Source of the DNA: Siphonobacter aquaeclarae
Lineage (GTDB): Bacteria; Bacteroidota; Bacteroidia; Cytophagales; Spirosomataceae
Reading direction: 5' to 3'
NCBI RefSeq assembly: GCF_900103285.1
Contig: NZ_FNGS01000002.1
Span: 598,064-662,063 of the forward strand
Length of the DNA: 64,000 bases
In this document: one piece after another, positions 11,209-56,745 of the stretch
Numbering within the stretch: position 1 is the first letter of the stretch
Layout of the letters: each line of letters begins with the position of its first letter
Position numbers and translations under genes: made by a program
The notes under the pieces: model-generated
What the model saw: the letters and a program-made list of their open reading frames with translations, nothing else
Told to the model about the DNA's origin: nothing
Database searches by the model: none

Positions 11209-11428
11209 CTTTCGGCGGTCAGCTATTGGCTTTAAGCTGTAGGCAATAGGCTTTAGGCAGCTGGTAATCGCTTTCGGTTATTGCTTGCCGGTTCGAGATG
11301 CCGAATACTATTATCGTTTATTTATTACGAGCTCTTTTCTTCCTACATATAACGAAAGCTCAGGTCCAACAGCCGATAGCCTAAAGCCTACTGCCTACAG
11401 CTTAAAGCCAATAGCTGACCGCCGAAAG
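11209..11428. repeat. Inverted pair of heptad-repeat arms, GGCTTTA type (locus 1)
   Basis: Arms 11209-11258 and 11379-11428 are reverse complements at 49 of 50 positions and enclose 120 bp. Within each arm the sequence reads as successive 7-mers (GGCTTTA, AGCTGTA, GGCAATA, GGCTTTA). It fills most of the 367-bp gap between the divergent genes radA (start 11134) and the PorT-like gene (start 11502). No gene is seen in the gap. Transcribed, it would fold into a very stable hairpin. Confidence 0.9.
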
Positions 11429-11501
11429 CTGACAGCCAACAAAATAATCCTTCCCCGGTACAGCGTTTTAGATCCGACTTCAACATTTTATCTTTTCGAC
11501 C

Positions 11502-12194
11502 ATGAAAAAGTGCCTTGTCCTGATGGGCATCCTGTGGGCCACCGCCATTTCAACGTATGCACAGCGTAATGTTCCGTTCTTCCAGCTCGGAATCAAAGGC
11601 GGAACAAACCTTTCCCAACTGAAAACGGGAGACTTTCTGGCCAACGGCCAGTACAACGGCCAGACGCTCCGGGAAAACCTGGAGCAAAGCTGGGCGACGC
11701 GGGCCGGTTTTGTCGGAGGCATCTACATGCGGTTCGGTCGCCGGATTTTCATTCAGCCCGAAGTACTCTACTCCGGCAAAGGCGGCTCCTACACGGTTCA
11801 GGTACTGGATGACCAGGGCAACCCGGTCGGAAGTCCGCAACAGGTAAAGGTCAAAACCGAAAACATCGACGTACCGGTGCTACTGGGCCTCCGGCTCGGA
11901 CCGCTCCGGCTCAATGCCGGGCCGGTCGCTTCGTTTGTCATCAATACCAATGAGAGCATCAAGGAAGCGATTACGAAATACACCAACGAAGACTGGCACG
12001 ATACCTTCAACCAGGCCACCTGGGGGTACCAGCTGGGCGGCGGAGTAGATATCGGAAAGTTCAATATCGACGTACGCTACGAAAACAGCGTGTCAAACCT
12101 CCGCTTTGTACAAATCGATACGCCAAACGGGGAAAATCCCTTCCGGCAGAAGACCAAGAACTGGCAGGTGACACTCGGTATGCGCCTGTTTTAA
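11502..12194 (+). CDS. PorT-like outer-membrane beta-barrel protein
   Basis: 230 residues. A signal peptide ends at TYAQ (about 21) and is followed by FFQLGIKGGTNLSQL, the opening strand typical of the small PorT/OMP_b-brl_2 barrels of Bacteroidota. Alternating strands follow (RAGFVGGIYMRFGRRIFIQPEVLYSGKGGSY about 67-97; VPVLLGLRLGPLRLNAGPVASFVI) and the chain ends with an aromatic C-terminal strand (WQVTLGMRLF). Role unknown; the family includes a type IX secretion component but most members are uncharacterised. Single gene with a good terminator. Confidence 0.88.
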   Translation: MKKCLVLMGILWATAISTYAQRNVPFFQLGIKGGTNLSQLKTGDFLANGQYNGQTLRENLEQSWATRAGFVGGIYMRFGRRIFIQPEVLYSGKGGSYTVQVLDDQGNPVGSPQQVKVKTENIDVPVLLGLRLGPLRLNAGPVASFVINTNESIKEAITKYTNEDWHDTFNQATWGYQLGGGVDIGKFNIDVRYENSVSNLRFVQIDTPNGENPFRQKTKNWQVTLGMRLF

Positions 12195-12219
12195 GAACGC
12201 TCTTTCCCGAACAACAAGA

Positions 12220-12248
12220 AACGCCCGGCCAGCAGCCGGGCGTTTTCC
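12220..12248 (+). terminator. Terminator of the PorT-like gene
   Basis: Perfect 10-bp stem AACGCCCGGC (12220-12229) with GCCGGGCGTT (12235-12244), 5-nt loop and a short T tail. Starts 26 bp after the stop at 12194. Confidence 0.85.
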
Positions 12249-12280
12249 TACATTCACCTAACCACTAAGAGAATCTCAAA

Positions 12281-12781
12281 CTAAAAAGTAATGGCATTGC
12301 GGTAGCTCTGAAACTTCCGCATCACAAGATCAAACTCCTGCTTGCGGCGGCGCGCTACCCCGACGATTTTCCCGTTCTTCATCCACACACTGTCTTCTCC
12401 CTTGACATCGTAGCGAACGACGTGCTGAAGATTGATCAGGTAAGACTTATGTACCCGGAAAAAGGTATGTTTCTCACCCAGCAGCTTTTCGTAATCACGG
12501 AGTGTTTTGGACACCATGATCCGACGGCCATTGGTACAATAAAAAAGCGTGTAATTTCCGTCACCCTCGATCATTACAATCTCTTCAAAAGGGAGGAAAT
12601 GCATTTGACGGTCAAATACCGGAAGTGTCCCGGCGGGAATGTTCCACCTGCCGGTGGTTGCAACGAAAGAAGGCGACGGACTTAACATAGTATTGAAGGT
12701 TGAAGATGTTACGATATCTTGTTTGGACAATACAAAGGTGCGTGTTGAGGAGGCTATGCTGCTAGCGCCTTTTTCCCTCAT
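12281..12781 (-). CDS. Stand-alone LytTR DNA-binding regulator
   Basis: 166 residues. Residues about 60-158 form a LytTR domain: FLPFEEIVMIEGDGNYTLFY, then SKTLRDYEKLLGEKHTFFRVHKSYLINLQHV and VGVARRRKQEF, all characteristic of the family. There is no receiver domain; the N-terminal 55 residues are Ser/Thr-rich with no known fold. An internal ATG at 12688 would remove 31 of them and is an equally possible start. Known role of LytTR: binding to promoter-region direct repeats. Divergent from pheS, with heptad repeats in the shared upstream region. Confidence 0.85.
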   Translation of the reverse strand: MREKGASSIASSTRTFVLSKQDIVTSSTFNTMLSPSPSFVATTGRWNIPAGTLPVFDRQMHFLPFEEIVMIEGDGNYTLFYCTNGRRIMVSKTLRDYEKLLGEKHTFFRVHKSYLINLQHVVRYDVKGEDSVWMKNGKIVGVARRRKQEFDLVMRKFQSYRNAITF

Positions 12782-54952: not shown

Positions 54953-55103
54953 CGCAGTCAGGGCTTTGGTAGTGACGAACGCAAAGGTAGGGTTTAATCC
55001 GGTTGACGGAAGACCTCCCCGGCAGACTTTGTTCGACCCCTTCCGAACGATAAACTTCCCCTGCTAACTCGCCGATTTATTTTCAGGAGTACGCCGAAGC
55101 TCC

Positions 55104-55111
55104 TAATTTTG
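55104..55111 (+). promoter_or_regulatory. -7 box of asnS
   Basis: TAATTTTG, an exact TAnnTTTG match 54 bp upstream of the asnS ATG at 55166. Confidence 0.6.
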
Positions 55112-55165
55112 CAACCCAGTTCATCAGTCCGGACGGCCGGGAGGCCGTTCTTCACCGAAGTTCAC

Positions 55166-56620
55166 ATGAAATACCAAATCAAAGACTACCTCCGTCACCA
55201 CGGATTTGTGGGACAAACCATTACGGTTCAGGCCTGGGTGCGAACCAAACGTGAGAGCAAAAGCGTCAGCTTCATTGCCCTTAATGATGGCTCTACCCTG
55301 AATAATCTCCAGGCCGTGGTGGATGCAGGTGTCGTTGCCGAGGATATTCTCAAGCTGGTGACGACCGGTTCCTGCATTGCCGCTACCGGCGAGCTCATCG
55401 AATCACAGGGGACCGGCCAGTCGGTCGAACTCAAAGTGACGGCCCTGGAAGTATACGGCACCGCTGATCCCGATGCCTACCCCCTGCAACCCAAGCGGCA
55501 CTCCCTCGAATTCCTCCGGGAAATTGCCCACCTGCGCCCGCGGACGAACACCTTCTCGGCGATCTTCCGGGTACGGCATACGCTTGGCTACGCCGTTCAC
55601 AAGTACTTCAACGACAACGGGTTCTTTTACTGGAACTCCCCCATCATCACGGGGTCTGACGCCGAAGGCGCCGGAGAAATGTTCCGCGTGACGACGCTCG
55701 ACCCGAAAAACCCGCCGCTGAAGGAAGACGGTTCGGTCGACTACAAAGAAGACTTTTTCGCCCGTGAAACCAACCTGACCGTTTCCGGCCAGCTGGAAGG
55801 CGAGCTCGCAGCGCTCGCCCTGGGCAAGATTTATACGTTCGGACCGACGTTCCGGGCCGAAAACTCCAACACAACCCGGCACCTGGCCGAGTTCTGGATG
55901 ATCGAGCCGGAAATGGCGTTCTTCGACCTGATCGATAACATGGATCTCGCCGAAGACTTTGTCAAGTATGTCATCCGGTATGCGGTCGAAAATTGCGGCG
56001 ACGACCTGGCCTTCCTCGAAAAACGCCTTCTCGAAGAAGAAAAGAACAAGCCGCAGAACGAACGCAGCCCGATGCCGCTGCTGGAGAAACTCCAGTTTGT
56101 ACTCGACAACGACTTCGAACGCGTCACCTATACCCAGGCCATTGAAGTCCTCCTCCAGTCGAAACCGCACAAGGAAAAGAAATTCCAGTATCCGGTGGAA
56201 TGGGGTATCGACCTGCAGAGCGAACACGAGCGCTACCTCGTTGAGAAGCATTTCAAAAAGCCGGTGATCCTCACCCACTACCCCCGGGCGATCAAGGCGT
56301 TCTACATGAAGGAAGAAACCGAGCAGGTCAACGAGAAAGGCCCGACCGTCCGTGCGATGGACGTGCTTTTCCCCGGTATCGGCGAAATCATCGGCGGCAG
56401 CCAGCGGGAAGACAACCTCGACAAACTCGTTGCCCGGATGAAGGAAGTAGGTATCGAACCTGAAAGCATGGACTGGTTCCTCGATACCCGCCGCTTCGGA
56501 TCGGCTCCGCACTCCGGCTTCGGTCTCGGCTTCGAGCGCCTTATCCTGTTCGTAACCGGCATGGGCAACATCCGCGACGTGATTCCTTTCCCGCGTTTTC
56601 CTAAATCTGCGGAGTTTTAG
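55166..56620 (+). CDS. asnS: Asparagine--tRNA ligase
   Basis: 484 residues from the ATG at 55166 ([20 protein letters not shown]); an in-frame start at 55109 lies inside the promoter box. OB-fold anticodon-binding domain (about 15-105: [23 protein letters not shown]) and class II catalytic core: motif 1 region [19 protein letters not shown], motif 2 [28 protein letters not shown] (about 225-252), motif 3 [28 protein letters not shown] (about 450-477). The NIRD and PEMAF signatures fit AsnRS rather than AspRS. Terminated by a hairpin made of heptad-repeat sequence. Confidence 0.97.
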
Positions 56621-56621
56621 A

Positions 56622-56745
56622 GCAGAGGGCGTGGGGCAAAGGGCATGGGGTGAAACTCCGTGCCCTTTGCTTTTTTTGCAGGGGGCAAGGGGCAGAGGGC
56701 ATGGGGTGGCTACCCTCTGCCCCATGCCCTATGCCTTCTGCCCCA
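56622..56745. repeat. Heptad-repeat arms, GGGCATG/GGGCAGA type (locus 7)
   Basis: Successive G-rich 7-mers (GCAGAGG, GCGTGGG, GCAAAGG, GCATGGG) run from 56622, then further G-rich units at 56682-56707 and the inverted C-rich set (CCCTCTG, CCCCATG, CCCTATG, CCTTCTG) at 56712-56744. The first part doubles as the asnS terminator; the last part encodes the C-terminal residues and TAG stop of the minus-strand C1 peptidase. Confidence 0.88.
56636..56677 (+). terminator. Terminator of asnS, built from heptad units
   Basis: Stem GCAAAGGGCA (56636-56645) with TGCCCTTTGC (56661-56670), then T7 (56671-56677). Confidence 0.85.

Follow-up and report, generated by a model that had tools for sequence, protein, structure and literature searches.

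The window, the whole 64,000-nt stretch of Siphonobacter aquaeclarae contig NZ_FNGS01000002.1 that was analysed, carries a series of intergenic hairpins whose arms are arrays of short tandem units. Between radA on the minus strand and an outer-membrane gene on the plus strand, a heptad hairpin of unit RGCTNTA spans 11200..11437 (arms 11200-11258 and 11379-11437, 120-bp loop), and the gap that holds it measures 367 bp in S. aquaeclarae vs 161-163 bp in congeners. A second RGCTNTA hairpin lies 5' of pheS (arms 12858-12892 and 12911-12945, the array beginning at 12847), where the corresponding stretches of five congeners have no heptad array, and the 3' side of pheS carries a hairpin of the 9-bp unit TCTGTGTAG (arms 14106-14132 and 14148-14174), as had been noted before. 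The third RGCTNTA hairpin has a 194-bp loop (arms 14980-15015 and 15210-15245) and is absent from the Tandem Repeats Finder (TRF) list. The unit TTTAGGG is found at two sites. At 35530..35640 the array (35530-35587) starts within a few bases of a TetR-family gene's start codon and its inverted arm (35609-35640) is close to the stop of the upstream gene; at 41330..41483, between convergent genes, the array (41330-41399) includes the left-hand gene's stop codon and shares with the inverted arm (41436-41483) a 25-bp mirrored core, 41375-41399/41453-41477.

Two sites remain. The complex RGCTNTA site at 53736..54305 consists of a 189-bp block with heptad arms in 3.0 copies (TRF), its C-rich arms lying at 53879-53914, 54068-54103 and 54257-54292. 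Its pairing is weak: the scored inverted repeats (score 13.5) link adjacent blocks with the C-rich arm first, the array at 54257 has no inverted partner at threshold, and the G-rich arm is recognised by eye only. At 56636..56744, again between convergent genes, two GGGCANR hairpins stand in series (56636-56651/56655-56670, with a T run after it, and 56682-56706/56720-56744), found only at the lower scores of 11.0 and 15.0. Two of the window sites are flanked by divergent gene pairs. Rfam 15 at its gathering score gave 0 matches in the window.

The first-pass annotation had listed seven of these sites as one family of paired, inverted arrays of 7-bp units, with 14.1 kb as an eighth site of 9-bp unit. 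TRF with a minimum score of 30 recovered arrays at seven of the eight places, missing 15.0 kb, and a strict inverted-repeat rule (arms of at least 18 bp, score of at least 16, period 7 or 9) identified six periodic inverted repeats in the 38 window gaps, at 11.2, 12.9, 14.1 (the 9-bp unit), 15.0, 35.5 and 41.3 kb, whereas none of 100 dinucleotide-model shuffles yielded any. Six sites thus stand by the strict rule and 56.6 kb stands at lower score, with 53.7 kb weak. In a 464-kb genome sample that includes the window, we found 20 period-7 arrays (score of at least 13), 6 inside the window and 14 outside it, along with 17 arrays at period 14, 11 at period 21 and 0 to 2 at any other period; the Markov control for this sample gave 0 period-7 arrays. 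Across 862 kb of the genome, 36 of 39 heptad arrays possess an inverted partner within 450 bp, vs 53 of 600 random intergenic 40-mers, and 1 of 39 possesses a direct partner. The paired inverted arrays are therefore real, paired above chance and not confined to the window.

Moreover, as claimed earlier, the unit varies by site and the elements sit at the borders of genes. The pairing is systematic, and some process maintains the complementarity of the arms. The proposed unit pattern of GG[C/G] plus four bases fails to cover GTTTTCR, which occurs elsewhere in the genome and together with RGCTNTA, TTTAGGG and GGGCANR is among the unit families of the genome; most units are 7 bp long, and units of 8-10 bp also occur. 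The arms often mirror each other unit by unit, with 948 of 1063 bases paired in 30 elements vs a mean of 822 when units are shuffled, a count that is inflated by the selection of inverted repeats for pairing.

The order of the arms follows a rule. Whichever strand is read, the G-rich arm leads in 29 of 31 heptad inverted repeats, with 2 exceptions, and among the 36 paired arrays all 20 G-rich arrays have their partner to the right and all 15 C-rich arrays to the left, one being balanced. For GTTT-type pairs the G-first and C-first counts are 114 vs 2 genome-wide and 703 vs 55 over 24 genomes, and on visual inspection some 35 of these 55 C-first places resemble ordinary A-tract/T-tract terminators, whose polarity is the opposite one. 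The scored pairs at 53.7 kb are a further exception, and genome G077 shows no G-first excess (4 vs 4). Where a stop codon is followed by no element, the sequence after it is not enriched in G (plus at 140 ends, minus at 180 and zero at 31).

Fused telomeres have the same G-first orientation, and units such as TTTAGGG look telomeric. Such an orientation would be expected if broken ends were healed by adding G-rich, telomere-like repeats to the two 3' ends, which were then joined. We consider such healing very improbable: it does not account for the mirrored unit order of the arms, for the terminator-like hairpins found within some loops or for the adherence of the sites to stop codons, and the genome has no match to the reverse-transcriptase domain RVT_1 (PF00078), which one of five congeners does have. 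A telomerase or reverse-transcriptase route was dropped on the last of these grounds. The end-joining that had been suggested for these arrays is unsupported, given two copies with arms 98% alike around unrelated loops, the hairpins within some loops and the lack of PF00078. The polarity rule does not appear in the first-pass annotation.

With respect to genes, the elements are placed mainly by stop codons. Between tandem genes, the element starts at a median of 10 nt past the upstream stop and 55 nt before the next start (17 cases), so that of the placement reported earlier, beside starts and stops, it is the stops that are favoured and the starts less so. This position, and the strong RNA folding of seven window sites (z of -3.4 to -7.4, 50 shuffles each), fit simple selection for terminators or for hairpins at RNA 3' ends, for which tandem units would be easy raw material and in which compensatory mutation would keep the stem. 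Consistent with such selection, canonical terminators are rarer in S. aquaeclarae convergent gaps with a heptad hairpin (6 of 14) than in those that lack both heptad and 9-bp elements (39 of 47; p=0.005), and gaps with 9-bp elements have them in 4 of 11 cases. In tandem gaps of the same species the difference is not significant (3/19 with an element vs 90/259 without, p=0.13), and the association is not replicated in genus g17, either in convergent gaps (5/13 vs 13/34, p=1) or in tandem gaps (10/41 vs 36/141, p=1). A candidate terminator role is thus partially supported, in the convergent gaps of S. aquaeclarae and not in g17.

At least five T in the 7 nt past the arm were found for 5 of 31 heptad elements vs 6.8% of random stretches, the latter scored on one side only, while for convergent elements the better side was taken; the same test failed to single out ordinary terminators because their T tract falls within the arm. 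Arm mismatches in tandem context comprise 24 A-C and 14 G-U, and since G-U is not in excess there is no sign of selection on RNA pairing as such. Two further observations speak against RNA 3'-end selection by itself: species 92% identical differ at one site by several transversions that are mirrored between the arms, and two window sites are in divergent gaps. Of the RNA-hairpin selection raised in the first-pass annotation, the 3'-end position fits and the expected G-U excess is lacking; as a full account we regard it as quite unlikely.

Comparison of orthologous gaps, using one genome per species, bears on how the elements change. The gaps of the S. aquaeclarae congeners (PheS 79-87% identical) are too diverged to place exact empty-site ends, and the comparison was therefore shifted to genus g17, where the site is often kept and the unit altered or other. 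Species 92% identical mostly have the same unit, and they differ by changes mirrored from arm to arm, by copy changes of 7 bp and by an inverted loop in one case (G121 53632, where 7-bp and 28-bp indels are also seen); at 83% identity a shared site usually carries another unit. Presence is correlated between genomes G121 and G137 (both occupied in 10 gaps, a single one in 4 and 1, neither in 43) and between G121 and G083 (5, 3 and 1, and 17). The unit is identical in 9 of the 10 sites shared by G121 and G137, indicating that full replacement is infrequent at that distance; the looser detection used here includes two C-first sites among the ten (51955 and 76793) and misses shared sites 47654 and 33265, which are visible by eye. 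Of the five sites shared by G121 and G083, four have a clearly different unit and one a near variant. One gene end is occupied in 8 of 8 species; the elements there are all G-first and represent no fewer than three clearly different units, and two of them are weak (scores 15.5 and 13.0). Since the hairpin often stays at its place after a stop codon while the repeated word changes, what is conserved seems to be the shape and not the sequence. In a literature search that covered few subscription journals, no case of one unit replacing another at a conserved site came to light.

Changes in one arm are often matched in the other. At site 34350 a T-to-G unit variant occupies a single unit in G113 and three units in G137, and the opposite arm mirrors it except for one mismatch in G137. 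Over seven sites (405 paired columns) we counted 19 two-sided vs 16 one-sided differences where 1.8 two-sided would be expected if the arms were independent, a count again inflated by selection of the repeats for pairing.

Different units at the same place in related species would also arise if REPIN-like, non-autonomous mobile hairpins inserted just past stop codons and replaced each other, with a transposase acting in trans. REPINs are by design inverted doublets that fold into hairpins around a spacer (PMC3116915), the copies at 11.2 kb and locus L139 are 98% identical over 46 bp of arm sequence and have unrelated loops, and a GGCTGACGC/GCGTCAGCC core recurs in the loops of many g17 elements. 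Against mobility, the whole genome has one match to a Y1-type transposase (PF01797), and its locus (L223, 3.3 kb) holds no heptad or 9-bp array and another hairpin instead; an empty site with target duplication was not resolved in the species compared; and the stepwise unit spread at 34350, with the loop nearly unchanged, resembles rewriting in place. We judge REPIN-like insertion unlikely. Two related candidates were set aside: a link to RAYTs, as the lone Y1_Tnp locus adjoins that other hairpin, and a MITE with terminal inverted repeats, as the loops of the best copy pair (11.2 kb and L139) do not match.

Our preferred explanation, held tentatively at a little short of an even chance, is that the hairpins are anchored at gene 3' ends and that their units turn over by slippage and arm-to-arm templated copying. 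Replication slippage within one arm would alter copy number and spread a unit variant, and a nascent strand that folds back would copy one arm into the other, which would rewrite the two arms together and allow the loop to flip. The hairpin would persist at its site where a structured barrier past the stop codon, probably acting at the RNA level, is useful or tolerated, perhaps for 3'-end protection or to stop transcription. Judged from sequence comparison, arm-from-arm copying fits the mirrored changes between close species, and of the dedicated process proposed in the first-pass annotation it is this copying, not the end-joining, that the data may favour. The arm-copying model by itself does not predict why the G-rich arm is first, for which the loading of Rho on C-rich RNA is a candidate reason, and the present alignments do not separate rewriting in place from whole-element replacement.

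A broader version, possible although we would not call it likely, is that hairpin, post-stop position and G-first polarity are inherited and the sequence is not, new words of 7-10 bp rewriting both arms by self-templating. If rewriting in place holds, a structure would be inherited without its sequence, and if this reading is true, a self-templating hairpin would bring the heptad repeats of Bacteroidota, Xanthomonas and cyanobacteria, so far unexplained, under one account. The polarity rule, the stop-codon anchoring and the differing units at a kept site offer sharp tests of mechanism and function.

Among known systems, the STRR sequences of filamentous cyanobacteria are also intergenic tandem heptads; they are described as single arrays, and it is by description only that they are set apart from the elements here. 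Intrinsic terminators similarly place a hairpin past the stop codon, and the elements here differ from them in G-first polarity and tandem units. REPIN/REP sequences are likewise dispersed extragenic inverted doublets that form hairpins with a spacer, and REP groups are defined by over-represented sequences near specific RAYTs (PMC3116915), whereas the arms of the elements here consist of tandem units whose sequence changes, and the search for a Y1 transposase linked to them found none. The TAACTGA repeats of Beggiatoaceae, Cyanobacteria and five Bacteroidetes share the 7-bp tandem unit and the intergenic location near gene borders, but they have one fixed unit, are direct repeats with just one inverted case in the main genome, and lie mostly just 5' of starts there (PMC4679880).

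The closest relatives are the heptads of Xanthomonas and Nostoc. The study that describes them (PMC4692102) states that heptad repeats are over-represented in bacteria, their cause and function lacking an accepted explanation, and gives the units as GGGAATC or (GGGANTN)n in Xanthomonas and GGGGA(C/T)T in Nostoc/Anabaena. It describes convergent inverted heptad pairs near stop codons in two Xanthomonas genomes (70 and 75 cases). Pairing itself, which the first-pass annotation had taken as different from known systems, is thus already published, and the elements here, intergenic tandem 7-bp units in inverted pairs near stops, are a variant of it. The G-quadruplex role proposed for those heptads would agree with the G3 runs of the TTTAGGG and GGGCANR units and with the position and convergent pairing common to Xanthomonas (PMC4692102); yet RGCTNTA, GTTTTCR, AGTTAAG and GATGAAT have no G3 run and show the same pairing, polarity and place, so that G-quadruplexes are unable to explain most units here and we find the idea scarcely credible for this family. 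Where that study (PMC4692102) has one G-quadruplex-capable unit family per genome, we find several unrelated units in a single genome, most of them without G3 runs and 36 of 39 arrays paired, and, unlike in Xanthomonas and Nostoc as described there, related species have different units at the same site.

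Heptad arrays at the window sites are real and far above chance: a strict rule applied to the 38 window gaps returned 6 periodic inverted repeats, where each of 100 shuffles yielded 0, and TRF recovers arrays at seven of the places named in the first-pass annotation and misses the eighth, 15.0 kb. In 464 kb of this 6.19-Mb genome, including the window (part of contig C7), 20 arrays of period 7 score at least 13, together with 17 of period 14, 11 of period 21 and 0 to 2 at other periods; a Markov control gave 0 at every period. Pairing is systematic. Across 862 kb, and thus beyond the window, 36 of 39 heptad arrays possess an inverted partner and one a direct partner, whereas an inverted partner is found for only 53 of 600 random intergenic 40-mers. 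Of the 82 inverted repeats with arms of at least 18 bp in the same 862 kb, 31 have a period of 7 bp and 19 of 9 bp; the other 32 are hairpins of which several are terminator-like by eye. The 53.7-kb site is the weak case, a 189-bp block present in 3.0 copies (53736-54305) whose scored inverted repeats span neighbouring blocks, C-richer arm first. Here whole arm-loop-arm blocks are tandemly amplified, and similar amplification is seen by eye at L144 13246-13780. One contig from a congener starts within a perfect GTTGGTT array (L182 1-99); long arrays may therefore interrupt assemblies, which would lower their count.

The two arms obey a polarity rule: read 5' to 3', the G-richer arm precedes, where chance would place it first in half. 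As an inverted repeat is identical on both strands, this G-first rule is valid for either. It is followed by 29 of 31 heptad inverted repeats in the 862 kb, and among paired arrays the partner lies rightward of all 20 G-richer and leftward of all 15 C-richer arrays, one being balanced. In a second genus, g17, the G-first counts for seven genomes are 11/11, 9/9, 5/6, 4/4, 1/1, 1/1 and 3/3, from stretches partly orthologous to one another, and the stretches of an eighth genome yielded no periodic repeat. Elsewhere we found 8/9 G-first at named Bacteroidota loci, 1/1 in congener stretches, and 15 G-first, 1 C-first and 2 balanced in family stretches. A whole-genome search for GTTTNNN unit pairs gave 114 G-first and 2 C-first in the window genome and, counting overlapping matches, 703 and 55 over 24 genomes, with backward-read control patterns at 29 vs 31; by eye, about 35 of these C-first matches resemble A-tract/T-tract terminators. 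The excess is absent from G077 (4 to 4), and G021 has 1 G-first and 0 C-first pairs. No G excess was found after element-free stop codons (140 ends plus, 180 minus, 31 zero). Units of 8 bp (GAATGAGT type) with the G-first design occur in other genera of the family (L159 11141, L162 10125, L166 3726, G121 75067). A g17 hairpin family, CCCCTAAATCCCCTAAAGGGGACTT, has the opposite, C-first polarity (L292 5452-5544, L330 2889-2964 and several copies in the G113 stretches); the L292 and L330 copies, both of G121, are missing from G137.

With genes called by a simple codon-usage routine without an annotation pipeline (coding fraction 0.81-0.84), 12 heptad elements fall between convergent genes, 17 between tandem genes and 2 between divergent ones, the background of gaps of at least 30 bp being 78, 303 and 96. 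Placement next to both start and stop codons had been proposed; stop codons are in fact favoured over starts, the element beginning a median of 10 nt (range -8 to 806) after the upstream stop in the 17 tandem gaps, with a median distance of 55 nt to the next start. The stop-codon rule is not absolute: two elements, both in the window (11.2 and 12.9 kb), lie in divergent gaps. Canonical terminators were found in 6/14 convergent gaps with heptad elements, 4/11 with 9-bp elements and 39/47 without elements in the window genome, and in tandem gaps in 3/19 vs 90/259, a non-significant difference; the terminator rule also matches 38/300 random 200-mers. Position and the fewer convergent-gap terminators suggest a 3'-end function, which we rate at no more than moderate confidence, because g17 showed no such difference (convergent 5/13 vs 13/34; tandem 10/41 vs 36/141).

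At the 11.2, 12.9 and 14-15 kb gaps, the window-genome elements are absent from all five congeners. Other heptad arrays occur in four of the five, 8 in total from samples of 0.1 Mb per congener, vs 29 in 464 kb of the window genome. GTTT pairs are present in every congener, numbering 32 to 71. Among 80 named records kept, the nearest to the window-genome PheS are a Cytophagaceae MAG (76%) and Flectobacillus and Dyadobacter (69% each). Within g17, element presence is correlated at orthologous gaps: 10 both, 4 and 1 single and 43 neither for G121/G137 (92.2% identity across 75 kb); 6, 3 and 2, and 17 for G121/G113; and 5, 3 and 1, and 17 for G121/G083 (82.7% across 44 kb; p 0.0045), with 0/64 in shuffled gaps. 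Judged by our match threshold, both species have one and the same unit at 9/10, 5/6 and 0/5 shared sites, respectively; in the last pair 75054 is a near variant, which leaves four of the five sites with clearly different units. C-first polarity is seen at two of the ten sites shared by G121 and G137. Directly after a stop codon at G121 42438, a G-first heptad hairpin is present in 8/8 species, weakly in G129 (score 15.5) and G105 (13.0); three or more clearly distinct units are represented (GATGAAT, AGTTAAG/AGTGAAG-like and AATGAAC).

Slippage with fold-back copying of one arm from the other would yield concerted multi-base changes in both arms, as well as unit-number changes and loop flips; replacement of the whole element would leave some identical marks. 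At 53632 the G137 loop is, one base excepted, the reverse complement of the G121 loop, and the arms are set apart by 7-bp and 28-bp indels. At 34350 a unit variant is present in a single unit out of three in G113 and in all three in G137, mirrored in the opposite arm with one mismatch. Among 405 paired columns compared over seven sites, 19 differ in both arms and 16 in one arm, in comparisons that are non-independent. The arms agree in unit order, with 948/1063 bases paired in 30 elements vs a mean of 822 with units shuffled (9/30 elements singly at ≤0.05), a figure biased upward because the repeats were selected by pairing. Selection for an RNA hairpin, raised in the first-pass annotation, should favour G-U over A-C as tolerated mismatches. 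We counted 14 G-U and 24 A-C, so arm symmetry is better attributed to DNA copying than to RNA-stem selection; selection may still keep the site.

The 11.2-kb copy and one at C7:169.9 kb have 46 bp of arm in common (98%), and their 120-bp loops show no match to each other. At g17 sites 47654 and 91863 the arm unit differs and the loop retains the core GGCTGACGC, in some cases with one base changed; the GGCTGACGC/GCGTCAGCC core recurs, in both orientations, in the loops of g17 elements whose arm units differ (e.g. L291 1749-1824, L293 9455-9545, L295 9365-9454). Some loops contain terminator-like hairpins or other dispersed palindromes. The REP-like palindrome GGTGGTTGAGC..GTCGAAACCACC lies at L135 14239-14597 (three copies in one gap), L146 7650-7743 (within a heptad loop) and L141 7463-7550. 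A sequence with the GTGCGTAGC palindrome (L205 7657-8092, that is C7:487657-488092; L146 12662-12954; L143 13720-14112) occurs, by eye, as 158-bp inverted arms or adjoining heptad arrays. The GACCCCGAAGGGGTC hairpin (L223 1290-1399, L150 5720-5841) is a possible REP/IS200-type partner of the sole Y1-type transposase match, also at L223. A second hairpin family, of 9-bp units (TCTGTGNNN), comprises 19 inverted repeats in 862 kb, among them window 14106-14174, L136 2768-2842, 3966-4033 and 4065-4131, and L145 5402-5474 and 16449-16519. Convergent gaps contain 14 of the 19; one ordered series of units is found again at several loci, and the polarity of the family is weaker (14 to 5).

The GTTT heptad pattern is found in 47/150 family genomes and 17/36 genera, although in certain genomes, G120 and G162 among them, only the backward control matches; RGCTNTA is found in 13/150, with 97 matches in the window genome and none in the five congeners. 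The paired design had been thought unlike known heptad repeats, a view that finds no support as regards the pairing: heptad repeats are already described for Xanthomonas and Anabaena (PMC4692102), those of Xanthomonas with convergent inverted pairs and with place kept at 83%. In that account the repeats lie close to open reading frames and follow the same strand rule, and their cause and function are left open. The elements described here have inverted pairs, kept place, nearness to open reading frames and strand rule in common with those heptads. What sets them apart is that their units are many and unrelated, most of them incapable of forming quadruplexes as judged from the sequence, that pairing is near-universal, and that different units are found at kept sites.
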